Of a DNA stretch of 64,000 nt, positions 4,362-56,922 are shown piece after piece. Position 1 is the stretch's first letter; every line of letters begins with the position of its first letter. The translations under genes and the position numbers were made by a program. Origin of the DNA: Syntrophobacterales bacterium (lineage in GTDB: Bacteria > Desulfobacterota > Syntrophobacteria > Syntrophobacterales > Thermodesulforhabdaceae); contig JAOACS010000028.1 of NCBI GenBank assembly GCA_026417655.1, positions 62,001-126,000 of the forward strand. Direction: 5' to 3'. Below the pieces are notes generated by a model that made no database searches, had not been told where the DNA came from, and was given only the letters and a program-made list of their open reading frames with translations.

Positions 4362-5684
4362 TCACCGTTTCTTACTACTATAGATCACATCAACCACAAC
4401 ATCCATGCCAGGTTTAAGCTCCCCACCCGTCACCTCAGTTAAGACCCCATTGGTTGCTCCGGTAGTTATAGTAAGAGCGGTTAGCTTGCCATCTTGCAAT
4501 ACCCAGACCTGTTGTTCCTTTGGTAACACCGTCTCGGGTGTCAAAGTTCTTATGGGGGAACCACCCCCAGCCCTACTTCCAGGAAATCTTGGAAGAAGCT
4601 TTCCCACAAGTCCACCACCCGAGGAGGTCAATGGCTTCGTCTGAACCGTTGGAGGTGAGAATCTAAGAGCAGCCGTTGGAATTACGAGCGCATTACTTAT
4701 CTCCTGCACCGAGATTCTAGCTGTAGCCGTCATACCGGGTCTTAAAGCTAAATCCCTGTTATTAACGTCAAGAATAGCTTCATAGGTCACAACCCCCGAT
4801 ACGGTTGTTGAAGCATATCTTACCTGTTTGACTGTCGCCTTAAAAACTCGCTGAGGATGGGCATCTACTGTGAAGGTAGCTTCCTGTCCATCCTTCACCT
4901 TGGACACATCCGCCTCATCGACGTTAACATGTAAATCCATTTTTGTAAGATCCTCTGCAAGAACAAAAAGTTCAGGCGCCTGCAAGGATGCGGCCACGGT
5001 TTGTCCTGGTTCAACCTTCCTATTAAGGACCACGCCGTTTATAGGAGAACGTATAATAGATTTGGAAAGATCGGTCTCAATAGCCTGAATACTTGCTTTA
5101 GCCTGAGAAACTGCGGCCCTTGCACTCGCAAGATCGGCCTGGGCTCGCTCATAAGCGGCTTCCGCAGCGTCCATCTCTATCTGAGACGGAACTTTACCGT
5201 CACTTAGGGATCGAAGCTGTCTGAGTTGAGAAAGTTTCGCTTGGGTCTCCTTTACCGTAGCCTGGGCTTGTAGGACCTTAGCCTGAGCGGATTCAAGATT
5301 AGCTTTCGCCTGGGCAAGTTGCGCCTCCAGTTTAGAGGTGTCAAGCCGAGCTAGTACCTGACCCACCTTTACCCTATCGTTATAACTTACCTCCACACTT
5401 TTTATAATTCCCGAAAGCTCGCTTCCCACACTTACCGTATTGGTTGGCTGTAACGTTCCTGTCGCAGTTACTATAACAGTAAATCCCCCTATTGAGGCCT
5501 GTTCAGTTTTATATCTCTGTTCCAAATTGGGATTGGAATAACGGGTTAGAATAACAATCCCTATCGAAGCAAGAGCTACCAGAATGATCATAATAAGTCC
5601 CTTTCGCCTTCTCCAGCGAAAATAAGGACTGTCCATGGAAAAGATCTCTGTCACATCAGGTCTTTTCTGTTTTTCACTCATCAC
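4362..5684 (-). CDS. MacA-like periplasmic adaptor (HlyD/RND family)
   Basis: The 440-residue protein has a short cytoplasmic tail, one membrane anchor (about residues 29-46, LIMIILVALASIGIVIL), a lipoyl half-motif (TGTLQPTNTVSVGSELSG), a long alpha-helical coiled-coil hairpin rich in Ala, Gln and Lys (about 115-205), the second lipoyl half (IIRSPINGVVLNRKVEPGQ) and C-terminal beta-barrel regions. Such adaptors bridge the inner-membrane transporter to a TolC-like duct. Its start overlaps the end of the outer-membrane factor gene by four bases (ATGA), and the ATPase follows 11 bases downstream, so all four proteins are probably translated together. A Gly/Pro/Ser-rich insert near residues 345-375 is not typical of MacA. 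Confidence 0.93.
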   Translation of the reverse strand: MMSEKQKRPDVTEIFSMDSPYFRWRRRKGLIMIILVALASIGIVILTRYSNPNLEQRYKTEQASIGGFTVIVTATGTLQPTNTVSVGSELSGIIKSVEVSYNDRVKVGQVLARLDTSKLEAQLAQAKANLESAQAKVLQAQATVKETQAKLSQLRQLRSLSDGKVPSQIEMDAAEAAYERAQADLASARAAVSQAKASIQAIETDLSKSIIRSPINGVVLNRKVEPGQTVAASLQAPELFVLAEDLTKMDLHVNVDEADVSKVKDGQEATFTVDAHPQRVFKATVKQVRYASTTVSGVVTYEAILDVNNRDLALRPGMTATARISVQEISNALVIPTAALRFSPPTVQTKPLTSSGGGLVGKLLPRFPGSRAGGGSPIRTLTPETVLPKEQQVWVLQDGKLTALTITTGATNGVLTEVTGGELKPGMDVVVDVIYSSKKR

Positions 5685-7126
5685 TTCCGCTCCACTTCAT
5701 ACCAAGGAGAGGTTACTTCCCATCCACCACCAAGGGCCCTATACAATCGGATCAAATTAGAAATCACTGCACCTCTAGCTCGAGTTAACTCATCCTGAAA
5801 AGCAAGGTGAGATCTTTGAGCTTCAAGAACTGAACCAAAATCTACAAGGCCTGAAGCATACTTATGGTTAGCCAACTCGGAAGCACGTTTTGCCGCCATT
5901 TCAGCCACTACTAGAGCTTCATACCGCCCCTGCTCTTCCGAGTAGGCCTTCAAGGCGTTCTCCACTTCCTCAAGAGCTTGTAACACCTTTAAGCGATAGG
6001 TAGCAAGAGCCTGTTCCACCAAAGCCCTTTCGACTTCAAGGGCCTGCTTTAGCGCTCCACCTCTAAAGATAGGGAAAGAAAGAATTCCCCTTCCTATAAG
6101 AACTTTCGTAGCTGATGAAAAAAATCCTCCGGGAGATAGAGCTTCAATGCCTATAGTTCCACTCAAGGCAATGGAAGGATAAAGCTCTGCCTCTGCAATA
6201 CCTACCCGCGCTACTTGAGCAGCAAGTTCCCGTTCCGCCTTTCGAATATCTGGACGGCGTCGAAGCAGATCCGCTGGGATCCCTACCACAAGATCCTTTG
6301 GCGGTGACGGGAGTGGAGCGATGTTTTTGAGTTCCTCCTTAAGACTTCCCGGTGGCTCACCCAAAAGCACAGCGAGACGATTCATAGCCTCCTCAACGCC
6401 AGTTCTTAAAAGAGGAATTTGAGATCTTGTGCTTTCAAAATTATACCTAGCCTGTTGCACTGCTAGCTCATCACTAAGCCCTGCCTCATATCGCCACGAG
6501 GCTAAATGTAAGGATTCTTCCTGAACAGTGAGATTTTCTTCCGCCACTGCCAGCCGGTTTTGATAAGTCCGGGTCTCTACATAGGCTAAAGCTACCTCGG
6601 CTGTAAGTGAAACAAGAACATTTCTTAGCTCCTCCTGGGTTGCTTCAAGAGTTCGCTCGGCTGCTTCAACGGCTCGACGTGTTTTCCCAAAGATATCCAA
6701 CTCCCAGGAGGTATCTATTTCAATGGTATAGAGATCTTCCGTTGTAGTGTAACCCCTGGGGGGATCTCGGTATGTTCCCGCAGATGAAAAAGAGGAGCCA
6801 ATTGAAGGAAATAGGGACGAGAGAGCAATGCCACGTCTTGCCCTGGCCTCTCTAATCCGAGCGTAGGCCTTGGCTATATCTAAGTTTCCCTGAATGGCTC
6901 TTCCAATAAGTTTTACAAGTTCTGGATCTCCAAGGGTCTTCCACCAAAAGGCTAACCTTCTTTCATCATCTTCTGAAAGAGCTACCGATGATAGAGGCGC
7001 TTCCACATTACGCCATGCTTTAGGAAGAGAAATTTCTGGCTTTACATAATCGGGTCCCACCGAAAAACATCCGTAAATAAAAACCACCGTCGCTAGCTTA
7101 ACAACTCCTACAACCCATCTAACCAC
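5681..7126 (-). CDS. NodT/TolC-family outer-membrane efflux lipoprotein
   Basis: A 481-residue outer-membrane factor. The N terminus has a lipobox ending at Cys20 (FIYGC) followed by the NodT hallmark SVGPDYVKPEI, and the body has two repeats of long amphipathic helices typical of the TolC alpha-barrel, with GIPADLLRRRPDIRKAE and GLVDFGSVLEAQ motifs. It would form the exit duct for the MacAB-like pump encoded immediately downstream. The predicted start is GTG preceded by AGGGAAG. It is the first gene of the efflux operon; no clear promoter was identified before it. Confidence 0.93.
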   Translation of the reverse strand: MVRWVVGVVKLATVVFIYGCFSVGPDYVKPEISLPKAWRNVEAPLSSVALSEDDERRLAFWWKTLGDPELVKLIGRAIQGNLDIAKAYARIREARARRGIALSSLFPSIGSSFSSAGTYRDPPRGYTTTEDLYTIEIDTSWELDIFGKTRRAVEAAERTLEATQEELRNVLVSLTAEVALAYVETRTYQNRLAVAEENLTVQEESLHLASWRYEAGLSDELAVQQARYNFESTRSQIPLLRTGVEEAMNRLAVLLGEPPGSLKEELKNIAPLPSPPKDLVVGIPADLLRRRPDIRKAERELAAQVARVGIAEAELYPSIALSGTIGIEALSPGGFFSSATKVLIGRGILSFPIFRGGALKQALEVERALVEQALATYRLKVLQALEEVENALKAYSEEQGRYEALVVAEMAAKRASELANHKYASGLVDFGSVLEAQRSHLAFQDELTRARGAVISNLIRLYRALGGGWEVTSPWYEVERK

Positions 7127-7326
7127 TGTAATCTTCCCTTTTTATACATTGTTTCTTCTTTGCAATAGTATGTCGCCTAAAAAAGATATGGTTACAATCT
7201 GGAAGTTCATTCTTCTACATAAACATTTTGGTGTTGGGGAAGGAAACGTAAGACCTAAGAACCCTTACTAAATACCGTAGGGTATAGTTAAAAACAGGCA
7301 TTAAAGCTACCAGGGTTTTTTAGTTC

Positions 7327-8018
7327 TTACTCGTCCTTTATTCTTACAGAAAGAACCTCCCTATACCTTTTTTCAAAATCAGAAACCACCTCTACCCATA
7401 CAATAGAGGGAATAGTCTCCATTTGATAGATTCTAGAGAATATACCGGCCCTCTCAATAACTCCTTTGACGTCCTCTTCGTCTGCTACGTAGGATACCTC
7501 TATGGCTATGAGAACCTCCTTGTCCTGGGAGGGTATTTTACCCCTAAGGAGAACGTCCAGTTTTAGGGCCTCCTCTCGCTCCTAAGGCATCATCTAACCT
7601 TTCTAGCCATTCGTAAATAGGTATTAATTTTACCTTCCTAAGAAATTTTCCAAAATAGGAAGGTGCCTTTTCTATAATCTTTCTCTCAAGATTGTCGCCT
7701 TTGAGGTTTCCTACATCTACCTTAATAACTCCCATATCTTTCTTAAGAATTGCCACATCCTGCTTTAATACCGATACATCCTGTTTTTATGATCTCCACA
7801 TTACCTTAAATTTTATTCGTTCTACTTTCCAAGGGCTCAAATCTCTCACTAACAAACTCATTGAACTTTCTCGGCAATTCGATAAGTTCCTCTGTAAAAA
7901 TGAGAGCTCTTAGCTCCTGAAGCCAATCCTGATTCTCTTTAAGAGCCTTTACTAGATCCCCGAAAGTTCTGATAGTATATTTTTACCTAGGAGACTTTTT
8001 AGAGGTTTTCTTTACCAT
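7327..8018 (-). pseudogene. Broken coiled-coil / PD-(D/E)XK-like gene
   Basis: Joining frames on the minus strand restores one protein. ATG at 8016-8018 gives MVKKTSKKSPR and then a TAA (7983-7985). The same frame continues as TIRTFGDLVKALKEN and ends at a second TAA (7806-7808). Just after it, a five-A run near 7782-7788 shifts the frame by one base; removing one A gives heptads DVSVLKQDV and ILKKDM, then GDNLERKIIEKAPSYFG. A second shift near 7575 leads into REEALKLDVLLRGK and VLIAIEVS, ending in TAA at 7327. The layout (coiled coil, DNLER motif, D...ExS core) matches the DUF3782/PD-(D/E)XK-like proteins common in thermophiles. Two stops plus two shifts argue for decay rather than a single sequencing error. 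Confidence 0.7.
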
Positions 8019-45129: not shown

Positions 45130-45954
45130 ATGGATCTATCTCTTCTAAAAAAGCGAAAAAGACTAGGCATCCTATGTGCCTTTTGCTGTATCGTTCTTTT
45201 TGTATCCCTCCTTGATGGATTACTTGCCCGCTTTAGACAAAATCCCCACGAATTCCATGTGCTTCCTGGATCTGAGATCCCTGTCATGGGACCTCTTCCC
45301 CATGATATAAAGAATCTAGAACTTCTTAAGGTATCAATCCATCCAGACAATGGAGTAGGATTTGCTTTTGTTGGGACCCAGAGCGGCTATTGGCTTGGTG
45401 GCACCTTTTGGCGGGCATTGGTGGAAGTCCCAAAAAGAGTTCCAGAAGGTAAATACATCATCACGGTAAGCGCACCATTTCCCTACGACAAAAAACCTCT
45501 AGGGGTATTTACTATTTGGGTTCACGAAAATCCTAGAGCCATTCAAAAAACTTCTCTCTCTCTATTCAGACGTTACCTAGGCTTGAACCCTTGGTTTATT
45601 TTCTCGGCAACCTTTGGGATAGTCTTTCTACTTGGTGGATGGCTTTTTCTAGTCTCTTCTAGGATGGAGAAGATTCTTAAAGAAGAAGGTATAGGGGAAA
45701 TATACAGAGTTCTCGTCGATAAGGAGCAAAACCGGACCTACGTTCTCTTCAGTATCGGGAAAAATTCTGGTATTTCAGAAAAAGACTCTCTTGAGGTTAT
45801 CGATACAAATGGAAAGGTCGTTGCATCTGTTGAAGTTAAGGAACTTTTTGAAAACGACGGCGTAGGGCTACTTCTAGAAGCCAATAGCAAAATAAAGCCT
45901 GGACTATTTATTAGGAAAGGGAAGGGCTTTACTAACTTAGAACGCCTTACGTAG
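45130..45954 (+). CDS. Membrane protein of unknown function, two helices
   Basis: 274 residues. One helix near 12-32 (LGILCAFCCIVLFVSLLDG), a beta-rich periplasmic part (about 35-140), a second helix near 155-178 (FIFSATFGIVFLLGGWLFLV), then a cytoplasmic C-terminal domain (GEIYRVLVDKEQNRTYVLFSIGKNSGI). I do not recognise the family. It begins 31 bases past the terminator of the Usp-TauE cluster and may be read through from it. Its 3' end overlaps the convergent glycosyltransferase gene by 18 bases. Confidence 0.7.
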   Translation: MDLSLLKKRKRLGILCAFCCIVLFVSLLDGLLARFRQNPHEFHVLPGSEIPVMGPLPHDIKNLELLKVSIHPDNGVGFAFVGTQSGYWLGGTFWRALVEVPKRVPEGKYIITVSAPFPYDKKPLGVFTIWVHENPRAIQKTSLSLFRRYLGLNPWFIFSATFGIVFLLGGWLFLVSSRMEKILKEEGIGEIYRVLVDKEQNRTYVLFSIGKNSGISEKDSLEVIDTNGKVVASVEVKELFENDGVGLLLEANSKIKPGLFIRKGKGFTNLERLT

Positions 45955-47811
45955 ACGTATATCCACTAATGTCCTTACCGTATCGAAATAGGTTTTGATA
46001 AGGGCGATCCGAGCTGGATTCTTAAGAAGGGTCTCCGAAAGATGGAAAAGGTGTTTGAATAATGAGGTATATTCTACTCTATCATTTTTAGATCCCTCTT
46101 CTCGGCTTCCCTTTTTATCCAAAAGAAAATCATTTATCGCCTGAATAACAGCTTCAAGTCTAGTCCTTTCTTCATAAGAAATTATCCTAGGAACTAGGGA
46201 GTTCTCAACAAGAGAAAGAGTTTCCTCAAGCCTTTTTTTGTTCCATTCTTCATAAAAGAAGAGAGAATTTCTAATGCCGTAGTAAATACTCGTTGAAGAT
46301 CCCATAAAATCTCCAATGGATGCACCACCCTTGTGATAGACTACAGAAAGAGGATTGTATAAGACCATGAAACCATTACGTATGGCTCTAAGACAGATCT
46401 CATTGTCTTCAAAATATAGAAAGTAATCTTCCTCTAAGAGCCCATGAGTTCTCAAAAAGTCGCTTCTAATGAGCATACTGGCACCAGAGACAAATTGAAC
46501 ATTAAGAATTATTTCTGAAGATCCCCCTACTGTAATCTTTCCATGGTAAGAAACGGAAACACCATCAAATTGTATCTTTTCCGTATCAGGATAGCAATGT
46601 AGTTTGGAACCTACAATTGCAACCTGAGGAAGGAACTCAGCAACAGAAATGAGAAAGTAAAGAGCGTGGTCTCCAATAATTGTGTCATTATTAAGAAGCC
46701 AAACATAGTCAGCATTCCAGGAAAGAGCCATCCTTATACCTTCATTAGAACCCCCGCCAAAACCCTTGTTGGAGGTAAGCTTTACAAAAAAAACCTCCCC
46801 TTCGAATCTTGGGCTTGTAGCCTCTATCCTATTAGTTGGGATGTATAGACGTCCCGCACGCTTACAAAGCGATTCTATTTCGGCTGAACGATCCTCGGTA
46901 GATCCATTATCGACAACAATTATATTAAAACGTTCATACTGCTCCTTCATAAATAAAGATGAGAGACTATCGACGGTGTCATCCCAACCATTGTAATTAA
47001 CAATGATAACGGATACCCGAGGTTCTCTCCGCTCTACGTAACGAACCTTTCCCATCCATCTATTGTGAAGAATACGAAGATTTGGGATTGAGTGATCAAA
47101 GCGACCAGGAGATGAGCTCTCAAGATGGTAAAGAACACTCTTTGGCGTGTAGACTACTCGGTAACCGGCTGTTCTAGCTCGGAGACAAAAATCCACGTCC
47201 TCGTATCCGTTAATGAATCTCTCATCGAAGCCCCCCATTTTTTCAAAACATTCTTTTCTGACAAGCATGCACGCAGCCGTCACAACATCGTAGTCACGCT
47301 CAATATTTGCGTCGGGAAGATCCGCTGGTTTTCCAGCATAAATATGAAAAGGCGTAATAGGAAAGGGATAGTTCCGAAACAAGACCCCAGCATGCTGTAT
47401 TGTCCCATTTGGATAAAGTAATTTCGCACCAACTATGCCAATATCCCTACTCCTTTTGGAAACATCCATTAAAGCCTCAAGCCATCCGGGAAGGGTGACC
47501 GTATCATTATTTAGAAAAGCAATATAGTCTCCTCTTGAAACAAGGGCTCCTCTATTACAGGAAGCACTAAAACCCAAGTTTCGATCATTTTTAAGAACCT
47601 TTATGAAAGAGTGGTGCCGTGAGAGATAGGCGAGATAATTTCCAGTGTTGTCCTGGGAATAATCATCCACAATTATTATCTCAAAAGGAATAGAGGGAGG
47701 ATTTTTAAGTATCATTTCTATACATCTCTTTGTGAGCTTTAGCTTGTTGTAAACCGGGATAACAATAGAAACGAGGGATCCTTCATTTCCTTTTAAAACT
47801 TCATACCTCAT
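45937..47811 (-). CDS. Glycosyltransferase with two GT2 domains
   Basis: 624 residues. The first GT-A domain (about 12-230) has SIVIPVYNKLKLTKRC, GDYIAFLNNDTVTLPGWL and NGYEDVDFCLRARTAGYRVVYTP; the second (about 262-500) has VSVIIVNYNGWDDTV, YVWLLNNDTIIGD and YFLYFEDNEICLRAIRNG. The NND motifs stand for DXD. A helical tail follows. Two catalytic units suggest it adds two sugars in series. It is the last gene of the glycan operon; its start overlaps the upstream gene by 11 bases. Donor and acceptor are unknown. Confidence 0.93.
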   Translation of the reverse strand: MRYEVLKGNEGSLVSIVIPVYNKLKLTKRCIEMILKNPPSIPFEIIIVDDYSQDNTGNYLAYLSRHHSFIKVLKNDRNLGFSASCNRGALVSRGDYIAFLNNDTVTLPGWLEALMDVSKRSRDIGIVGAKLLYPNGTIQHAGVLFRNYPFPITPFHIYAGKPADLPDANIERDYDVVTAACMLVRKECFEKMGGFDERFINGYEDVDFCLRARTAGYRVVYTPKSVLYHLESSSPGRFDHSIPNLRILHNRWMGKVRYVERREPRVSVIIVNYNGWDDTVDSLSSLFMKEQYERFNIIVVDNGSTEDRSAEIESLCKRAGRLYIPTNRIEATSPRFEGEVFFVKLTSNKGFGGGSNEGIRMALSWNADYVWLLNNDTIIGDHALYFLISVAEFLPQVAIVGSKLHCYPDTEKIQFDGVSVSYHGKITVGGSSEIILNVQFVSGASMLIRSDFLRTHGLLEEDYFLYFEDNEICLRAIRNGFMVLYNPLSVVYHKGGASIGDFMGSSTSIYYGIRNSLFFYEEWNKKRLEETLSLVENSLVPRIISYEERTRLEAVIQAINDFLLDKKGSREEGSKNDRVEYTSLFKHLFHLSETLLKNPARIALIKTYFDTVRTLVDIRLRKAF

Positions 47812-49441
47812 GATTACATCTCATAATATCATCGTATATTTTATGGAAGAAATTATCATCTACGTCTCTTACAGCTCTATCAATACTAGCCAGTTCTTCC
47901 CCTGAAAACTTTGCTTCCATTTTCATATGATTTCCCAGAACATGAGCCCAACTAGCTCTGGAAAGGGTCAACATCCGTCCAGCCTCTTGGAGATGGATAA
48001 CCTCCACACGACCATCGTAAAGCACCATTCCTCCATGTTTCCATATCTGGATATCATGTTCTAAATCGTCCACTTGAGATGGAGAAAAACATATATCAAA
48101 ATCTGGAATCCCGAATCTTTCCCATCTTCTACGATCAAACAGATGACAACACCCCATAACGGACAGACAGGGACGACGAAAAGAATACTGGCCAAGATCT
48201 AATGGAAAGGGCGCTGTTGGTGTAAATCTTATTTTCCTCTCGCCCGTTTCGTCAAAAAAACGATAGATATATTGAATTGTTCTAACTGAACCAGGGTTAT
48301 AAACCTTCGGTCCTACTACAACAACATTAGGAAAAAGCTCCATGTCCTGAAGATAATAGATAAGCCAGTCCTTAGGAAGTATCACATCATCGTCAAGGTA
48401 GGCGATATAGTCTGCCTCTTGAACCTCTGGAAGATACCACAGCCAGTTTCTTGCAGCAGGAGCTCCTATGTTGACGGGAAGGTGTATTATGGTGACGGGA
48501 TATGATCCGGAAATCTTTTTTATAGCTAATTCAAACTCTTCGGCTGAGAAATTCGTTGAGCCGTTGTTCATTATTACAACATTTGAAGAGCCTATCTTAG
48601 AAGACATAAGGGATAGGAAGGTCTTAAGGGTTTCTTCCAATTTGTTGAAGGTATAAAGAAAGATAAATATTTTTTTTCCTTCAAGAAGATTCTCTTGAGG
48701 TAGTGGTTGCTCTAACTCCCAGAGACGATGATAAATCCATAACTGAAGGGGTTCCCTTTTTAGGGAATCACTCCACCATCTACGAGCTTCCTCCTTGTTA
48801 CCTTCTCTGGCTGCAATCTCAGCTCTAAGATTACTCTTTAAGAAAGAGGAAAGGGCAACGTGGGCCCATTCCTTAGCCCTATCCAGATCATCGGCACTAA
48901 GAGCTGCGAAACCGAGTAATGCCCCAACTATAGGAGCGTAGGGCGTTTTGAGAAGTCGATATGCCGCTCTAATACATAAATCCCATCTTCCCGCCTTCCA
49001 AAATTTCAGCACTCCTTCATAGAGGAGAATAGGATTCATAGCGGATCCCACAACTTGGGAAAGAGAGTCTAAATCATCTCCGTACTGTGAAAACACCTTA
49101 TCCTTTTCCTGTTTCCAGCTCGAATCTTCTTCTCGTAATAACCTCCTAAGTAGGTTAATCCAATTAGTATCAAAGTCCTTAGGAGTAATTAGAGAAGAGG
49201 CTTTAATAAATACTTTCATAAGATCACTATCCATAGGATAGAAAGCAAGAAGTTGCCTAAGAATGGAAAGGAGAAACTCCAAGGAGCGCTCTCTTTCATA
49301 CTCTGGTAAGTTCTTAGATTGAAGAAGCTTAAAGATCGATTCACTAATTATAGTAGCAGCGGAATAATCAAAGGTTCCATATAATCTGTGGAGCCACAAA
49401 ATATTATCCAACAGGGACGATTTGCCAGAATTAATCTTCAT
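47801..49441 (-). CDS. Glycosyltransferase family 2, paralogue 3
   Basis: 546 residues: an N-terminal helical, TPR-like region (about 1-245) and a C-terminal GT2 domain (about 250-480). Catalytic motifs are YIAYLDDDVILPKDWL and, further on, GCCHLFDRRRWERFG with FSPSQVDDLEHDIQIW. The stretch NIGAPAARNWLW is shared almost word for word with the two genes upstream, so the three arose by tandem duplication. The helical half may dock on a protein or carrier acceptor. It overlaps its neighbours by about 11 bases on each side. Confidence 0.92.
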   Translation of the reverse strand: MKINSGKSSLLDNILWLHRLYGTFDYSAATIISESIFKLLQSKNLPEYERERSLEFLLSILRQLLAFYPMDSDLMKVFIKASSLITPKDFDTNWINLLRRLLREEDSSWKQEKDKVFSQYGDDLDSLSQVVGSAMNPILLYEGVLKFWKAGRWDLCIRAAYRLLKTPYAPIVGALLGFAALSADDLDRAKEWAHVALSSFLKSNLRAEIAAREGNKEEARRWWSDSLKREPLQLWIYHRLWELEQPLPQENLLEGKKIFIFLYTFNKLEETLKTFLSLMSSKIGSSNVVIMNNGSTNFSAEEFELAIKKISGSYPVTIIHLPVNIGAPAARNWLWYLPEVQEADYIAYLDDDVILPKDWLIYYLQDMELFPNVVVVGPKVYNPGSVRTIQYIYRFFDETGERKIRFTPTAPFPLDLGQYSFRRPCLSVMGCCHLFDRRRWERFGIPDFDICFSPSQVDDLEHDIQIWKHGGMVLYDGRVEVIHLQEAGRMLTLSRASWAHVLGNHMKMEAKFSGEELASIDRAVRDVDDNFFHKIYDDIMRCNHEV

Positions 49442-51125
49442 CTTTTTTCGATCTCTTTTCCTCTAAAGCTTCCTGAACTACTCGAAGTTTTTTTAAAAAA
49501 TCTTCCCAAAGTAGGGCTCTTTCCCATCTATAGATTTCTCTAAAAGGCTTTCCCGCAAACCTGTTCATCAATTTATACCAATTAGCGTCACCGAGTCTTC
49601 TAGCTCTGAGATCCCTTCTATGAAGTCTTGCTGTATTGTTCATGTGGTACACAGTCAGAAAACCGTTATAGATAGCAGGCCTATCCATAAGGGCCATTCT
49701 AAAATCGTGATCAAGATCATCAAACTGGGAAGGAGAGTAGCGCAAATCAAAGTCACCGCAGCTTAGCAAGACATCCCTCGAAAAAAGATGACAACAGCCT
49801 GTTACATGAACGCAAGGACGGATGTAATCAAATTCCCCAAAATCTTCCAGTTCATAGTGAATTGTAGTCCAGCGATAGGGTGGTATCTCCTTAGAGCTGT
49901 CATTATTAGAAATTCTTACAAGGTGATAGTCCACACTTTGCATTAAATAGGGAGTTTCGCTGTCAACCACTTTACATCCATAGGCTCCCCCATTGGGGTA
50001 AAGTTCCACTGCCGTTCCAAGACGTCCAAGCCAATCAGGAGGCACTATGGCATCGTCGTCAAGAAATAGGATCCATTCGGATCTCTTTACCTCAGGATGA
50101 TGCATTAGCCAGTTTCTCGCCGCAGGTGCTCCAATATTAATGGGAAGGGAAATAATGTGGAAACGATCCTTCCCAAACCTATCCTGCCATCCCTTCACTA
50201 TTTCATAGGAACCATCGGTGCTCCCATTTATAAGAACGAATACGATGCCATTGGGGATCGAACTTTTCGCAATGGAGTCTAGGGTTACATCAATTGCATC
50301 CCTTTTGTTATATGAATAGAGGCAAATACTCACTCGACCAGGGGGAGGTTTTGAGACCCTATTGGCACCTACCAATACATCGTGGATTCTAAGGATAGTA
50401 TTAACGTCCCAGGGATGAATTTTAATATAATGGAGCCAATTGGTTAAGGCCTCTTCGGAGTGCCTTTGCAAAAATGATATGTTTCCTAGAAAATACTTTG
50501 TAAATGCATAGGAAAATACATCGCCCCTAGAGGAGATCATCTTCCTTGCCCTTTCCAAGTCTCCTTGGAAAATGGCTGAATCTAGGAGTAGACGTTGTCT
50601 TATAAATTCAAGTGATTGTGGAAAATTAACTTGCTTTAACAATTCGTCAAACCAGCTCCAAAGCTTATAAATCGAAACCAAGGCTCTAATATGTCTTAGC
50701 CAATTCAGAGAAAAGGGAGGAGAATCTGTGGGGAAGTTAGAAAGTATATGTTGGACGTCCTTGATATCAGCAACACCACAAGGCATAGGAGTGTTCCAAA
50801 AATCATGGATAGCCTTAAGAAGATCTTTCTTTGAAGGAGGAAGGTAGTCCCAAAAGGCTTTGACCGAAGAAATAATTTTTAAGACATTTTGATTGAGAGG
50901 ATCAAATTCCCAAGTTCCTAAAATCATCTTTATACTCATATTGAATACTACATCTGAGATTGGATGAGCCAATTTAGGAATCTCTTCAGCTATTTTAGTA
51001 AAGGCACCTGTAAGGTTGTTACTACCCACTGAACCAATTAGGAGCAGATCACGTATCCCCGGTGTAATAATCCTCCATAAGTTTAAAGGCTTTGATTCGA
51101 GGTTAAATGAATTAATGTAATTCAT
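49431..51125 (-). CDS. Glycosyltransferase family 2, paralogue 2
   Basis: 564 residues with the same two-part build as its neighbours: a helical N-terminal half (about 1-275) and a GT2 domain beginning VSICLYSYNKRDAIDVTLDSI. WILFLDDDAIVPPDWL supplies the metal-binding acidic triad; GCCHLFSRDVLLSCGDFD and YSPSQFDDLDHDFRMA match the other two. An insertion near residue 385 (RISNNDSSKEIPPYRW) differs from its siblings. It follows paralogue 1 by 30 bases. Acceptor specificity has presumably diverged. Confidence 0.92.
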   Translation of the reverse strand: MNYINSFNLESKPLNLWRIITPGIRDLLLIGSVGSNNLTGAFTKIAEEIPKLAHPISDVVFNMSIKMILGTWEFDPLNQNVLKIISSVKAFWDYLPPSKKDLLKAIHDFWNTPMPCGVADIKDVQHILSNFPTDSPPFSLNWLRHIRALVSIYKLWSWFDELLKQVNFPQSLEFIRQRLLLDSAIFQGDLERARKMISSRGDVFSYAFTKYFLGNISFLQRHSEEALTNWLHYIKIHPWDVNTILRIHDVLVGANRVSKPPPGRVSICLYSYNKRDAIDVTLDSIAKSSIPNGIVFVLINGSTDGSYEIVKGWQDRFGKDRFHIISLPINIGAPAARNWLMHHPEVKRSEWILFLDDDAIVPPDWLGRLGTAVELYPNGGAYGCKVVDSETPYLMQSVDYHLVRISNNDSSKEIPPYRWTTIHYELEDFGEFDYIRPCVHVTGCCHLFSRDVLLSCGDFDLRYSPSQFDDLDHDFRMALMDRPAIYNGFLTVYHMNNTARLHRRDLRARRLGDANWYKLMNRFAGKPFREIYRWERALLWEDFLKKLRVVQEALEEKRSKKDED

Positions 51126-51155
51126 ACAAAGACCCTTTAAGGTTACTGCTAGTTT

Positions 51156-52751
51156 TCAATGTCCTAAGTTATTTTCTCTTTTTAGAAAGGAAAGATAGGG
51201 ATAAAATCGATAGAAGAACTTAACATCATTTCCCATAACGTTCCCAACTTTTTGGAAATCCAATTGAGTCTCTCTTCCTACTCCACCGAGTTGATAATGT
51301 ACACACTCAACGAGCCCACAATAGATAACATCAAAGCCGTTAATTCTTAAGTCTAAATCATGAGCGATATCATCCATCTGGGATGGGGAAAATCTTATGT
51401 CGAACCCTCCTACCTTATCTATAGCCTGCCTGCTAAACACATGACAACAGCCCATAACATTGGTCGTTGGTCTGACAAAATCGTAAGTTTTAGGATCATA
51501 ATTAATATAAGGAACATCTAAGCTTAAACGAATAAATCCCTCCTTCGCAACGGAAATGTTACGGTAAAGATACTGGAGTCTTTTGGGTCTTCCTGGATAG
51601 ACCACTTTAGCACCTACGACACCAGCTTTGGGGTAATTTTTCATAACATTTAGAAAGACCACAAGCCAATCGGAAGGTACTTCCACATCGTCGTCAAGGA
51701 AGGCCACATAATCGGACTCCTTCGCAGCCGATGTGCTAAGAAGCCAGTTCCTTGCCGCAGGAGCACCTATATTGACTGGAAGGGAGATGATCTCTATGCG
51801 ACCACCAAAATGTTCCCTGTTTATATGGTTAACAATATCGATAGAATCATCGGTGCATCCGTTGATAAGAATAACTACTCGAGACTTTCCAAGTAAAGAG
51901 CCAGCGAGACTTAAAAGGGTGTTTTTAAGAAGGGTTGATTTGTTATAGGAATATAAAAATATGGAGATTAAGGATGAATCAACAACTCCATAATCCACTC
52001 TCAAAGGATTAGAAATTTGATTGATCCTGTGTATAATAGGCGTTTGATATTTATCAATCCTAAGAGACTCTTCATACAGAGAAATAGACGTAGATGTGTC
52101 TCCCATACAATATGCTATCTCTGCTGCGCAGTTAAGCCATCTGGGACTATTGGGTCTATTCTTCTTGGTTTTTTCGTAATAAACATAGGCCTCCTCCATA
52201 TTCTCTTGAAGGAAATTGAGCTGCATAAGTAGTTCTTCGAAGATTGTTTTCACTTCGGGAGGGATCTTGACTATGTCCAACCATTCACTTCCCACAGGAA
52301 CATTCTGGTTTAGGTCCAACAAATAGGCTCTCCAAATAAGATCAACGCTGTAGGGATAAGCTTTAAGATGGGACCATAGAGCTCTACGTTGAACCTCCAA
52401 GGCTTGACTGGATAATACACGCCACTGAGAAACAATATGATGAGGCGAACTATATCTTTTTAATATACTCAAAAAGGGATCCCTTATGCCCGTAATATTT
52501 TGTCGTAACTCTCTAATATCTTGATCTATCGGATCTAAGTCACAGGATTTGTTTAGTAGATATATGACCCAAGGAAGGTTTCTATCTAATGTTTCCTTAT
52601 CCTTTAGAAAACGAGAGAGATAAACCCTAGCTACAACTGGATCTAAAAGGAAGTTACCGAGGTAATTCCTCAAATGATCTATAGTCTCTTTGTCGTCCAA
52701 AACATTAAGTTCATAAAAGAGTCCACCTGGTATGAATTGATATTTAATCAT
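51156..52751 (-). CDS. Glycosyltransferase family 2, paralogue 1
   Basis: 531 residues. A helical N-terminal half (about 1-255, including a TPR-like EEAYVYYEKTKKNRPNSPRWLN segment) precedes the GT2 domain starting ISIFLYSYNKSTLLKNTLLSL. Key motifs are YVAFLDDDVEVPSDWL, NIGAPAARNWLL, GCCHVFSRQAIDKVGGFD and FSPSQMDDIAHDLDL. It is the first of three tandem paralogues, 29 bases downstream of the TagF-like gene. Confidence 0.92.
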   Translation of the reverse strand: MIKYQFIPGGLFYELNVLDDKETIDHLRNYLGNFLLDPVVARVYLSRFLKDKETLDRNLPWVIYLLNKSCDLDPIDQDIRELRQNITGIRDPFLSILKRYSSPHHIVSQWRVLSSQALEVQRRALWSHLKAYPYSVDLIWRAYLLDLNQNVPVGSEWLDIVKIPPEVKTIFEELLMQLNFLQENMEEAYVYYEKTKKNRPNSPRWLNCAAEIAYCMGDTSTSISLYEESLRIDKYQTPIIHRINQISNPLRVDYGVVDSSLISIFLYSYNKSTLLKNTLLSLAGSLLGKSRVVILINGCTDDSIDIVNHINREHFGGRIEIISLPVNIGAPAARNWLLSTSAAKESDYVAFLDDDVEVPSDWLVVFLNVMKNYPKAGVVGAKVVYPGRPKRLQYLYRNISVAKEGFIRLSLDVPYINYDPKTYDFVRPTTNVMGCCHVFSRQAIDKVGGFDIRFSPSQMDDIAHDLDLRINGFDVIYCGLVECVHYQLGGVGRETQLDFQKVGNVMGNDVKFFYRFYPYLSFLKRENNLGH

Positions 52752-52780: not shown

Positions 52781-54073
52781 CTAAAAATAGGATAGAACAA
52801 ATTTTGCCAATCTTTCACAGGCTTTCCCATCATCGTAGTTACGATGCATAATTCCTGCGTAAACCGACAGTCTCGATTTCCACTCATTCAGATGTTCTAC
52901 ACTATCCTTAAGGGCATATATAACTTCATCGCTTGAAAAACATGTTATACTAATATCATCTTCCTTCAGAAAACTAAATACTGGAATATCTCTATACTGT
53001 TTAAAACTCTCAACATTGGGTCTATAATTAATAATAGGTTTACCTAAAATTACATAATCATACCTAATTGAAGAATAATCAGTAATCAAGGCATCTGAGA
53101 GCTTCAAATAGGGATAAACATCCTCATTAGGGGTTACTATAGAAAAGTTATCAAGGGCATTACAGATGTTTAAAGCAGTCTTATAGGTATTCGGACATCT
53201 TATCGGGTGCCAAGGATGAAGCTTTAAAATAAAGTGAAAGGATGACATGTCCATAGTTTTTCTAAATAGAGCTATCCAATCATTAAATAATGATGGAGCT
53301 TCAGGATATGTAGGGCAAATCATTACCAATTTCTTACCTTGATTCTTCAATTCCTTTAGTTTCCCCAGTAGTAATAGATCGTTTCCCATGTAATAATCTT
53401 GATCTTCCTGCATGTCGTCGTTGACTAAAAAATCATTTCTTGGAGCCCCAAAGGGTAGGATTTTAGAGGTAGGAAATGAAGAAGAGTAGATTGGAATGAA
53501 CACCTCGTTTTCGGCTATTACATAGTCACACTCCGAAACTGCATGTAATAAGCCAGTAAAGGAAAAAAAATTTTCTGTCCTTATCAAATAATTTGCACCT
53601 ACATGCTTAGCAGGAATACCATGCCACAGTTGGATTTTCAAGGCCCCATCAAGACAGCCTTGCCAAAACCATGAATTTATATCCCTAAAATAATGTGCTC
53701 CATATATCACTATTTTAGCTTTAAGTAATGTTAATGCAGTCCTTTGCCAAGCTATCTCCGGACAAATGCTTGAAAAACCACTAGATTCTATAAGCTGCTT
53801 TTCTGAATAGCTACCAAACCATATAGGCCTGACATCTACACGCCACTTCTTGAAAAATTTAGAAATCCCAATAAAGGCATACTTCGTATTTCCATATATT
53901 CCCCCTTCCGATACAAACACCACAATGTTACTATTTCTAGGTTGTCTTTGAACGGCCTCCCTAAGAAGAGACGAGAAGAAAGCCGAATTAGCCATATAAA
54001 TTAACTTATCCATATGCCTCACGCATAGTAAATCTTTCTTAACATCATTATGGTCATTATAGAAATTCGACAA
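52781..54073 (-). CDS. CDP-glycerol:polyglycerophosphate transferase-like (TagF/TagB)
   Basis: 430 residues of the Glyphos_transf superfamily (GT-B fold). QLWHGIPAKHVG (about 149-160), LPFGAPRNDF, KLHPWHP and ITDYSSIRYDYVILGKPII are the expected conserved blocks; the HG and DYSS motifs hold catalytic and CDP-binding residues. Enzymes of this group transfer glycerol- or ribitol-phosphate from CDP-polyol to a glycan. In a Gram-negative-type organism this points to capsule or LPS polyol-phosphate decoration. The start overlaps the cytidylyltransferase gene by 17 bases; an internal Met at residue 21 is another possible start. Confidence 0.9.
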   Translation of the reverse strand: MSNFYNDHNDVKKDLLCVRHMDKLIYMANSAFFSSLLREAVQRQPRNSNIVVFVSEGGIYGNTKYAFIGISKFFKKWRVDVRPIWFGSYSEKQLIESSGFSSICPEIAWQRTALTLLKAKIVIYGAHYFRDINSWFWQGCLDGALKIQLWHGIPAKHVGANYLIRTENFFSFTGLLHAVSECDYVIAENEVFIPIYSSSFPTSKILPFGAPRNDFLVNDDMQEDQDYYMGNDLLLLGKLKELKNQGKKLVMICPTYPEAPSLFNDWIALFRKTMDMSSFHFILKLHPWHPIRCPNTYKTALNICNALDNFSIVTPNEDVYPYLKLSDALITDYSSIRYDYVILGKPIINYRPNVESFKQYRDIPVFSFLKEDDISITCFSSDEVIYALKDSVEHLNEWKSRLSVYAGIMHRNYDDGKACERLAKFVLSYF

Positions 54074-55589
54074 GTTGAGATAAATCTTTAACTATTAGCT
54101 CAGGCCAATCTACAAGATGCTCAACCATATCTCTAGTTGTTTCTCCAGTGAGGGTCAACACAAAGATTCCGCCCACGTTTCTTGCAAGCACCATATCGGT
54201 ATAGATTCTATCCCCAATGAATACCATGTTTTTACCTTCTGCTTTCCCACTCTCTACAATATACTTAATTATTTCTTTGTTGGGTTTCCCAAAAATTTTC
54301 ATAGGTTCTTTCCCAGTGGTCACTTTGACCATCTCGACAATCGCACCCGCATCAGGAATGAAACCATGTTCCGTTGGACAAACCACGTCTGGGTGAGTAG
54401 CAATATAGTCAATCCCTTTATTTATGGAAATACAGGCTTTTTTAATTTTATCATAGGTAAGCTCGGTATCATAACCTACTACTACAAGCTGAGGATCTTC
54501 TTCACTAATAAGAATCCCGGCCTTTTCTAGCTCGCTTCTCATAGATTCAGTTCCTACTAGATACACTTTTCGTATCTTTCTGTTTCTCAGAAAATCCACT
54601 ACACCATCCGTTGATAACACGATATGGTCACTACTTATTTCAAGTCCTAACAATCTGGAAAGTTTTTTAGCATAATCATTTTTTGATCTCGAGGAATTAT
54701 TGCTAATAAAGTAGAATCTATAACCCTTTTTTAATAAAGACGCTATAAATTCTCTGCTTCCCGGCAATAGTTCTTCACCTAGATACACAGTTCCATCTAA
54801 ATCCAAAAAGAATAGATTTTTGCTACTAAATTTTCCTACCTTGGAAAATACCTTATCTGCAATTGCCAGGTCGTCGTAGTTATCGATTTCTACCCATTTC
54901 CTTCCTGCAATATCAAAAGGTCTAGACTTCCACTCCCCTGCCTTTATTAGCCTATCTATCGCAACCTCTGTCCACTCCTTAAGCCTACCCTCGACCTCCA
55001 CAATATTTTTCATAAGAAAGTATAATCTAAGGGATGCTTCTTCCGAAAATTTGTATAAATCCAGCGAGTTACCAAAAGCTACATCCTTAGATATCTCTTT
55101 ACTTATTCCCGAGACATATCCCAATCCATCAACCGTTACTTTCATGGACTCGATGTTATATGAATTTTTATCAGCTACAATTAAATCCGTCTCTTTCGAC
55201 TCTGAGACATCCCTTATAATAGAATGCTCATAGACAACATCACCATTAGAAAGAAGAAAAGATTTCCCATAAAGTCCTACCTGTTTCATTACTAGATACA
55301 AGGAAAACATATTGTTTGTCACATCGTAGTCTTCGTTCACAACAAAATTAACATTAACATCCCAAAAATCACTCTTTATCAAATACTTTCTTACCTCCTC
55401 TTGAACCAAATCGGCCTTATATCCAACTGCAACGTTAATGTTTTTAATCCCAGCATCTATATAAGCCCTTAATTGATGGATAATAATTGGAATACCCTGT
55501 ACCTTAACAAGACACTTCGGTTTTTCAAAGGTAATCGGCCTCAAACGGGAACCTATCCCTGCAGCTAGTATCACACAATCTTTAACCAT
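54057..55589 (-). CDS. LicC-like cytidylyltransferase fused to HAD-IIA phosphatase
   Basis: 510 residues. Part one (1-255) is a GT-A nucleotidyltransferase with LAAGIGSRLRPIT and EKPKCLVKV (GxGxRxxPxT...PKxL), the YDVTNNMFSLYL motif and WVEIDNYDDLAIAD, a pattern close to phosphocholine cytidylyltransferase LicC. Part two (about 258-510) is a NagD-like HAD-IIA phosphatase with DLDGT at 263-267 (nucleophile Asp263), SNNSS at 296-300, the cap domain and GDRIYTDM. Joined with the TagF-like gene, it probably makes a CDP-alcohol such as CDP-glycerol, the HAD part trimming a phosphate from a precursor. It is the first gene of the operon. Confidence 0.9.
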   Translation of the reverse strand: MVKDCVILAAGIGSRLRPITFEKPKCLVKVQGIPIIIHQLRAYIDAGIKNINVAVGYKADLVQEEVRKYLIKSDFWDVNVNFVVNEDYDVTNNMFSLYLVMKQVGLYGKSFLLSNGDVVYEHSIIRDVSESKETDLIVADKNSYNIESMKVTVDGLGYVSGISKEISKDVAFGNSLDLYKFSEEASLRLYFLMKNIVEVEGRLKEWTEVAIDRLIKAGEWKSRPFDIAGRKWVEIDNYDDLAIADKVFSKVGKFSSKNLFFLDLDGTVYLGEELLPGSREFIASLLKKGYRFYFISNNSSRSKNDYAKKLSRLLGLEISSDHIVLSTDGVVDFLRNRKIRKVYLVGTESMRSELEKAGILISEEDPQLVVVGYDTELTYDKIKKACISINKGIDYIATHPDVVCPTEHGFIPDAGAIVEMVKVTTGKEPMKIFGKPNKEIIKYIVESGKAEGKNMVFIGDRIYTDMVLARNVGGIFVLTLTGETTRDMVEHLVDWPELIVKDLSQLVEFL

Positions 55590-55860: not shown

Positions 55861-56922
55861 ATGAAGAGAATTTTAGGGGTCTTTATGACAGTTTTCTTAG
55901 CTATAGGGATATCGAGGGCTTCCTCTGGAGTAAAACTAACCTGTAACGCCATTTATCCAGAGACTAGTCTTATAACGAAAGGGGTAATAGAGTTTGCCAA
56001 CAAGGTCAAAGAATACACTAAGGGATCAGTAGTTATAGAGGTTAAGGCTGGAGGAGTTCTCGGTTACAAGGGACCAGAATTACTAGGCATTGTTAAAGAC
56101 GGTATTATTCCCATGTCTGACATTCTTATGGGTGTCGTTCAGGATAGCGAAAAGGTTTTTGGGATACCGTCTCTTCCTAGACTTGTACTGACTTACGAGG
56201 ACGCTCTAAATCTTTATAACTCCTTAAAACCCTTCTACGAAAAAGCTGCAGAGAAGTGGAATCAGAAAATCCTATACGTTGCTCCATGGCCACCCACCGG
56301 TCTTTTCACCAAAGAGGAGGTTAAAAACATAGCCGACTTTAAGAATCTCAAGGTAAGGGTTTACAATAGGGAGCTAGAAAAACTTTTTGGTCTACTTTCA
56401 GCCCAACCAATTTTACTTTCATGGAAGGATGTGCCCGATGCTGTGAAGGAAGGAAAGGTCAACGCTGTTCTCACTACGGCAACTATGGGAGGGGAGATAA
56501 AACTCTGGGAACAACAATTTAAGTATTTTATACCCCTTCACCTGGATTTTCCTTTAAATATGGTAACTATCAATCTAGCGATATGGAACGGGCTCTCCCA
56601 GGATCAAAGGGCTGCAATAGAGAAAGCGGCAAAAGAGATTCAGGCAAAGCTATGGGAAGCTTCAAAGATGGATAATGCAGAAGGGATAAAAGGTCTTATA
56701 ACCAGAGGTGTGATAATTAACATGGGAGGAGGTGTAACATCGGAGTCTCGCCACGGCATTAAATTGATGGCTGAAAGTGGTGTCCTCTTAACGGGTCTAG
56801 ACAAAAATTTTCAGATGTCTCTTGATATCACAGCAAAAAGGGTTGTTGAGGATTTCCTATCAACTCTAGAAAAGGACATAGCCGATCTTCTACGGTCCTA
56901 CATGGCGTCAACAAAAAGATAG
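55861..56922 (+). CDS. TRAP transporter substrate-binding protein (DctP type)
   Basis: 353 residues with a signal peptide (about 1-21) and a DctP-fold mature part: ETSLITKGVIEFANKVKEYTKGSVVIEV, FKNLKVRVYNRELEKLFGLLSAQPI with the conserved Arg for the carboxylate ligand, and VTINLAIWNGLSQDQRAAIEKAAKE. It captures an organic acid in the periplasm. No DctQ or DctM membrane subunit is nearby, so it works with a transporter elsewhere or as a receptor-type protein. It is followed by a DUF488 gene 33 bases downstream. Confidence 0.92.
   Translation: MKRILGVFMTVFLAIGISRASSGVKLTCNAIYPETSLITKGVIEFANKVKEYTKGSVVIEVKAGGVLGYKGPELLGIVKDGIIPMSDILMGVVQDSEKVFGIPSLPRLVLTYEDALNLYNSLKPFYEKAAEKWNQKILYVAPWPPTGLFTKEEVKNIADFKNLKVRVYNRELEKLFGLLSAQPILLSWKDVPDAVKEGKVNAVLTTATMGGEIKLWEQQFKYFIPLHLDFPLNMVTINLAIWNGLSQDQRAAIEKAAKEIQAKLWEASKMDNAEGIKGLITRGVIINMGGGVTSESRHGIKLMAESGVLLTGLDKNFQMSLDITAKRVVEDFLSTLEKDIADLLRSYMASTKR

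Follow-up and report, generated by a model that had tools for sequence, protein, structure and literature searches.

A gene in the genome of a Syntrophobacterales bacterium (Desulfobacterota) codes for a LicC-type cytidylyltransferase and a HAD-IIA domain on one chain, and we propose here that the fused protein makes an activated glycerol phosphate. The gene lies in a stretch of 64,000 nucleotides that is called the window below (assembly GCA_026417655.1, contig JAOACS010000028.1, positions 62,001 to 126,000). In the reading that we favour, with a probability of roughly 0.6, the HAD half provides glycerol 2-phosphate, the LicC-like half converts it to cytidine diphosphate (CDP)-2-glycerol, and a Glyphos_transf protein uses the CDP-2-glycerol. 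That the product is CDP-glycerol of one isomer or another appears quite likely.

Domain architecture of the fused protein

The gene and its parts are the following; rows refer to the active-site alignment described below.

54057..55589, minus strand: fused nucleotidyltransferase/HAD-IIA gene, 510 amino acids (open reading frame, Pfam, NCBIfam, homologs, AlphaFold2 model)
54843..55589, minus strand: LicC-type cytidylyltransferase domain, residues 1-249 (Pfam, structure match; R15, K25, D117, E208, E234 and D236 conserved)
55296..55319, minus strand: TNNMFSLY motif, residues 91-98 (alignment)
54060..54836, minus strand: HAD-IIA domain, C2-capped and TM1742-like, residues 252-510 (Pfam, NCBIfam, PDB, structure)
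54789..54803, minus strand: HAD motif I DLDGT, residues 263-267, with D263 as nucleophile and D265 as acid/base (invariant, 39/39 rows)
54195..54215, minus strand: HAD motif IV region G459-D460-R461..T464-D465 (invariant, 39/39 rows)

The start codon is ATG with AAGGGG upstream, and a promoter scan 5' of the gene gave nothing above chance. The N-terminal half matches the Pfam families NTP_transferase (7.6e-11, residues 6-127) and NTP_transf_3 (1e-8), and the C-terminal half matches Hydrolase_6 (3.8e-26, residues 260-359) and Hydrolase_like (1.2e-15, residues 433-506), all above their gathering scores. With 151.8 bits for the NCBIfam model TIGR01460 (cut-off 100.15) the C-terminal half belongs to the HAD-IIA family. 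In the PDB its sequence matches Thermotoga TM1742 (1vjr, 3.9e-63), and that of the nucleotidyltransferase half matches pneumococcal LicC (1jyk, 6.9e-12). An AlphaFold2 model built from a 25-row alignment (mean pLDDT 94.9, pTM 0.89) predicts the same folds: modelled residues 252-510 take up the C2-capped HAD-IIA fold of TM1742 (Z 34.6 against 1vjr) and also resemble the glycerol-phosphate phosphatase Rv1692 (4i9f/4i9g, Z 29.2), while residues 1-249 superpose in the model on LicC (1jyl) with Z 27.7 over 228/228 residues and a root-mean-square deviation of 2.1. TM1742 and Rv1692 share the fold and the catalytic residues with the window protein and differ from it in being standalone phosphatases. 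A preliminary description, made from the DNA alone, had placed a LicC-like and a NagD-like domain on one chain, and this is borne out by Pfam, NCBIfam, PDB and structure matches; the motifs that it quoted (YDVTNNMFSLYL, WVEIDNYDD and DLDGT) are all found in the protein, and the gene lies exactly where it had been placed; its strand is the minus strand. As full-length homologs exist, neither chance nor a frameshift can account for the fusion.

Distribution and phylogeny of the fusion

A scan of 85,000 species genomes that required the motif TNN[MI][YF]SLY gave 577 stretches with 508 relatives, of which the best 80 were kept. Since the motif was required, conservation of residues 91-98 is partly selected and fusions without the motif were missed. 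Of the kept loci 78 were usable (L113 and L141 were dropped by the open reading frame filter, L111 entered by match coordinates): 26 are fused, 10 have both genes side by side (split loci) and 42 have the nucleotidyltransferase alone, numbers that count related loci and not independent events. Fused members share 35-46% identity and come, among others, from Paenibacillaceae, Pseudomonas, Chromohalobacter, Paracandidimonas, Kluyvera, Aeromicrobium, Spirochaetes, Rubritalea, Acetomicrobium, Zixibacteria, Parcubacteria, Gastranaerophilales and one Methanomicrobiales archaeon; one of them (L095) is without the first 43 residues. With 26 fusions in diverse phyla, the idea of a private oddity was rejected. 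Absence of the fusion from relatives had been named in the preliminary description as a result that would refute its reading. This holds for the 54 other genomes of the host class, from which the fused gene is absent (no match at E <= 1e-50), but not for the wider family. In a phylum sample of 395 genomes, host included, the listed matches besides the window gene each span one domain only. Horizontal transfer into the host genome is likely, because the class is without the fusion and the G+C content is low, with its minimum in the window at 52-56 kb (36.5-36.7% vs 40-48% elsewhere).

Among 5,426 complete E. coli genomes, 11 have a match to the Kluyvera gene, with 67-70% DNA identity. Four of the 11 were inspected, and the gene lies in the O130 O-antigen locus in two (L149, L152) and in the O33 O-antigen locus in the other two (L150, L151). 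All four clusters carry a gene that automatic annotation names "CDP-glycerol glycerophosphotransferase family protein", and the RefSeq label of the fused gene in them is only "HAD-IIA family hydrolase". Published structures of the O33 and O130 O-antigens were not found in the open-licence papers that were searched.

In viral contigs a single-protein scan was unproductive and two alignment-guided scans gave one short partial match and none, respectively; a whole-protein tblastn search against plasmids and phages gave single-domain matches only. Phage- or plasmid-labelled records (L043-L046) were rejected as fusions, as they hold standalone single-domain HAD genes. In one of them, the phage-labelled human-gut contig MT835755 (L043, 8452-9252), a TM1742-type HAD gene stands in a bacterial-looking cluster for glycerol and glycerol-3-phosphate utilisation, and the phage label looks wrong.

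In a nucleotidyltransferase tree of 90 rows, obtained with a quick search and with one row (L144) filling only 49% of the columns, all fused and split rows together with L104 and L105 form one group of 41 rows (SH-aLRT 94), with the LicD-linked, Treponema, Archaeoglobi and phylum groups outside it. Within the group, fused and split members interleave too much to give an order of events. The HAD tree (49 rows) has three standalone HADs of the phylum (L034, L036, L041) nested among the fused HADs, as if the nucleotidyltransferase had been lost; standalone phylum HADs linked to this nesting are L034, L036, L041, L062, L063 and L066.

Conserved active sites and a family signature

The active-site alignment of 39 rows comprises the window protein, the 26 fused members, two E. 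coli proteins and the 10 split members in concatenated form. The HAD residues D263, D265, N297, N298, K435, D460 and D465, among them those of HAD motifs I, III and IV, and the nucleotidyltransferase residues N115, D117, D177, W206, E208, W232, E234 and D236 are kept in 39/39 rows, and R15 and K25 in every row except the truncated L095. The catalytic residues of both halves are thus kept throughout, therefore both halves are under selection. The fold and the residues for cytidine triphosphate (CTP) and Mg2+ (R15, K25, D117 and D236) place the first half among the LicC-type, COG1213-like cytidylyltransferases. In the Thermotoga inositol-1-phosphate cytidylyltransferase PMC12275187 names R16, K26 and D112 as critical; a profile alignment to 4jd0 suggests that R15, K25 and D117 occupy their places.

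The side of the active site that faces the alcohol is different. According to PMC6697681, the residues near the amine are E104 and E196 in PntC and D105 and D192 in LicC. In the profile alignment N115 aligns with PntC E104 (and LicC D105), and E208 with PntC E196. Column 115 is Asn in 41/41 rows of the family, Glu in 17/17 rows of a Treponema/Actinomycete clade and Asp in 12/12 rows of a LicD-linked Bacteroidales clade, whose loci adjoin LicD (for example L116, Pfam LicD 2.3e-47). An Asn at this place speaks against an amine as substrate. D177 and W206 are likewise found in 41/41 family rows; column 177 is Asn or Gly elsewhere, and outside the family Trp206 occurs in 3/10 phylum rows only. M94, N115, D177 and W206 form a residue signature, seemingly new, that sets the family apart from choline- and phosphonate-type relatives.

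Two close relatives were rejected as identities of the enzyme. The CTP:phosphocholine cytidylyltransferase LicC (1jyk/1jyl) shares fold and CTP/Mg2+ residues with the window protein; however, its choline-side acid D105 is replaced by N115 in all family rows, and most loci of the fused family have Glyphos_transf and not LicD as partner. PntC (6pd1), a 2-aminoethylphosphonate (AEP) cytidylyltransferase fused to a transaminase, is similar in fold and in having a pathway partner on the same chain (PMC6697681), but its amine-contacting E104 corresponds to N115, and no phosphoenolpyruvate mutase is found over cut-off in the host genome (24.5 bits vs 31.5).

The first domain could also be an ordinary hexose-1-phosphate nucleotidyltransferase, with the HAD half as a sugar phosphatase. 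The general NTP_transferase fold is shared, and models of RmlA, GalU and GlmU match weakly. Their NCBIfam equivalog cut-offs and that of MurU are far missed (RmlA-long 60/320 bits, GalU 33/327), sequence-profile comparison with the PDB ranks LicC, PntC and inositol-1-phosphate cytidylyltransferases highest, and the family is set apart as a clade of its own by the TNN motif, D177 and W206. We consider this explanation highly improbable and rejected these enzymes as identities.

Genomic partners of the fused gene

A Glyphos_transf profile built from the loci under study was applied with a search radius of 3 kb; the 36 fused and split loci are termed module loci here. Matches are present at 17/26 fused, 5/10 split (8/10 within 3.5 kb) and 10/42 nucleotidyltransferase-only loci; strong scores among the last are confined to L104 and L105, both family members by tree. 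At four fused loci (L083, L086, L087, L091) a nearby gene is related to Glyphos_transf (profile comparison, 98% probability), the transferase of L073 is a Glyphos_transf found by six-frame search (6.2e-8), and the match of L069 (8.8e-4) is below the gathering score. Two fused loci (L072, L090) have LicD and L095 has no transferase. Hence, with the sub-threshold case included, 25/26 fusions have a CDP-alcohol phosphotransferase in their vicinity, be it Glyphos_transf, a relative or LicD, and the search for conserved pairing with Glyphos_transf genes that the preliminary description proposed gave a positive result.

Dehydrogenase genes are a second kind of partner. An Fe-ADH_2 gene neighbours all 10/10 split pairs (two of the ten were scanned with Pfam), and its product comes closest to glycerol dehydrogenase 3ce9 and to glycerol-1-phosphate dehydrogenases. 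In two fused loci (L070, L081) a GpsA-type glycerol-3-phosphate dehydrogenase gene is directly downstream. Taking both families together, which are unrelated, a dehydrogenase of glycerol or glycerol phosphate is present at 12/36 module loci. The TagD signature (HxGH and RTxGIST) occurs in 1/36, the fused locus L092 (8172-11506), which also codes for a TagD-like protein of 146 residues.

Some further gene arrangements were observed. A gene of 353 codons overlaps the start of the fused gene in L087 (8947-10005) and L091 (4338-5396), and the L087 copy has a weak match to a second HAD family (HAD_SAK_2, 2.5e-5). In a relative from the phylum (L048, G203:C26:84000-97000, 4424-6877, minus strand) one chain of 818 residues joins a LicC-type nucleotidyltransferase to a Glyphos_transf-like part, and in L057 (G150, 4832-7453, minus strand) the two are adjacent genes; here a cytidylyltransferase has been fused independently to its likely user.

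Neighbourhood and host genome

The fused gene is followed on the same strand by these genes.

52781..54073, minus strand: Glyphos_transf, TagF-like CDP-alcohol phosphotransferase, presumed user of the product (PF04464, 1.1e-35; the TTG start is uncertain)
45937..52751, minus strand: four family-2 glycosyltransferase genes (Pfam)

Spacing and strand suggest that these genes are part of a probable surface-glycan operon. The Glyphos_transf is the single such member in the host genome, and the best TagD score there is 41.5 bits (TIGR01518, cut-off 165.4), with none over cut-off. Together with the transferases beside the fusions elsewhere, this supports the earlier suggestion that the CDP-alcohol of the TagF-like neighbour is made by a route other than TagD. 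The host genome has one GpsA. Absences from this genome are not absolute, because it is rated 96% complete.

Three adjacent glycosyltransferase-2 proteins (window 47801-52751) each have about 250 N-terminal residues without Pfam match. TRAP-transporter genes (DctP or DctM) adjoin the fused gene (window 55861-56922) and also two standalone TM1742-type HAD genes (L046, 4601-6765, with DctM assigned by eye; L066, 4565-6719); around L066 (the same place as L034) there are TRAP-transporter and mutS genes. Elsewhere in the host genome (G000:C6:21557-23640; L065, 6513-8689) two nucleotidyltransferase-type genes of another clade stand in tandem, an arrangement also found in the same genus; the first codes for 481 residues and one of them has a TSSMYSLW motif.

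Discussion

In the proposed mechanism the HAD-IIA half would form a phospho-aspartate at D263 while handling a glycerol phosphate and, most likely, would move or transfer the phosphate via D263 to give glycerol 2-phosphate, rather than simply hydrolyse it. After a presumed transfer between the two sites, the LicC-like half would couple glycerol phosphate to CTP, with R15 and K25 holding the nucleotide and D117 and D236 the Mg2+, to yield CDP-glycerol, most likely CDP-2-glycerol. The adjoining Glyphos_transf would then pass glycerol phosphate from CDP-glycerol to a surface glycan. Glycerol phosphate is proposed because of the two unrelated glycerol-related dehydrogenases, the glycerol-phosphate transferases and the Rv1692-like relatives of the HAD half; this context favours glycerol over choline, ethanolamine and ribitol. 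Dehydrogenases that yield either enantiomer or glycerol would fit a product without handedness, for example glycerol 2-phosphate. The preliminary description had the HAD domain removing a phosphate, which it need not do: it may transfer or move one, and we favour phosphate transfer and CDP-2-glycerol because of the pneumococcal gtp gene order and annotation and a parallel with a HAD phosphotransferase proposed in C. difficile.

A separate-gene route to CDP-2-glycerol is known. The split loci match the pneumococcal gtp1-gtp2-gtp3 layout, which we take to be the CDP-2-glycerol pathway of the capsule loci cps 23F and 15A/B/C; Wang et al. reportedly found in 2010 that Gtp3 makes glycerol 2-phosphate and Gtp2 makes CDP-2-glycerol. 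In serotype 23F the order wchX-gtp1-gtp2-gtp3 is annotated in PMC3493582 as glycerol phosphotransferase, glycerol-2-phosphate dehydrogenase, nucleotidyl transferase and phosphotransferase. A nucleotidyltransferase, a phosphate-handling enzyme and a dehydrogenase thus stand beside wchX, and L097 has the same order (Glyphos, Fe-ADH_2, nucleotidyltransferase, HAD). The difference is that pneumococcus has separate genes, whereas nucleotidyltransferase and HAD are one chain here. A more specific and tentative version, which we hold to be doubtful, would make the HAD-IIA half a glycerol-phosphate mutase that moves the phosphate of sn-glycerol 1- or 3-phosphate via D263 to the C2 hydroxyl, before the fused domain adds cytidine monophosphate. 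The protein would then be a one-chain CDP-2-glycerol synthase that takes either enantiomer from central metabolism and has been spread by gene transfer through the surface-glycan loci of bacteria and some archaea.

Alternatively, the nucleotidyltransferase might make CDP-3-glycerol (or CDP-1-glycerol) directly, and the HAD half might simply be a phosphatase for glycerol phosphate that serves regulation, proofreading or clearance of the wrong isomer. Among characterised proteins, those closest to the HAD half are phosphatases, standalone TM1742-type HADs exist, with one close relative (L043) in a glycerol-3-phosphate cluster, and GpsA beside the fusions of L070 and L081 would supply sn-glycerol 3-phosphate. 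However, a phosphatase on one chain with an enzyme that consumes its substrate would waste that substrate unless its specificity were tight, and the two domains are kept together across phyla. The TagD-like gene of the fused locus L092, a single case, hints at different CDP-glycerol isomers and so at another product of the fusion, and gtp3 of pneumococcus is annotated as a phosphotransferase (PMC3493582). On balance this alternative is unlikely.

The alcohol might also be another neutral phosphoalcohol or a phospho-amino acid, with the Type A pathway of C. difficile (CD0241/CD0242/CD0244) as a model. There, according to PMC10714395, a HAD protein proposed as phosphotransferase, a LicC-like cytidylyltransferase and a TagF-like transferase would act in series via CDP-threonine. 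The same three-enzyme logic would apply here, and LicC-type enzymes accept phosphocholine, AEP, phosphoglutamine, phosphoglycerate and inositol 1-phosphate (PMC6697681, PMC12275187). Against this, CD0241 is of the phosphoserine-phosphatase/ThrH type and hence of another class than the C2-capped HAD-IIA (PMC10714395), and the C. difficile pathway is encoded by three separate genes. The two dehydrogenase families named above and the E. coli O33/O130 transferases, named CDP-glycerol enzymes by automatic annotation, also speak for glycerol. A different alcohol is thus rather improbable.

Several points weigh against CDP-2-glycerol as the product of the fused protein and against glycerol as its alcohol. 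HAD-IIA enzymes are often promiscuous phosphatases. The likeness to Gtp2 and Gtp3 is one of gene order and annotation. A gtp1-type dehydrogenase is not beside the window gene: Fe-ADH_2 is found at 10/10 split and 0/26 fused loci, no member is over cut-off in the host genome, and GpsA adjoins just 2/26 fused loci. Support for the family clade does not exceed an SH-aLRT of 94. Column 115 is also Asn in Archaeoglobi (10/10) and in CpgD-like nucleotidyltransferases of the phylum (9/10), therefore Asn115 counts against an amine and not for glycerol. Finally, Glyphos_transf-like enzymes may use other donors, such as the CDP-threonine proposed for C. difficile (PMC10714395, as above).

LicC-type enzymes for diverse CDP-alcohols are already known, including the Caulobacter phosphoglycerate cytidylyltransferase CpgD (PMC12275187). 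Like the window protein, CpgD is LicC-type and gives a CDP-activated C3 compound without TagD; it has no HAD domain, and the family clade is apart from CpgD-like sequences of the phylum in a tree that was built without CpgD itself. The CTP:glycerol-3-phosphate cytidylyltransferase TagD/TarD would likewise supply CDP-glycerol for Glyphos_transf, but it is of an unrelated fold and none is over cut-off in the host genome. The apparent novelty lies in the joining of both enzymes in one chain, in how widely this form occurs and in its presence in E. coli O33/O130 clusters under a label that says little; a search of open-licence papers gave no account of the fusion. The fused family probably represents a widespread route to activated glycerol phosphate that has been overlooked. 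If so, a widespread gene named only by its HAD half would be a TagD-independent CDP-glycerol synthase, which would explain how glycerol phosphate is activated in Gram-negative O-antigen and capsule loci and in some archaea. The isomer that is made, and the ability of the HAD-IIA half to transfer phosphate or act as a mutase, would become testable in laboratory strains, and a one-enzyme supply of activated glycerol phosphate would help in the synthesis of defined glycans.

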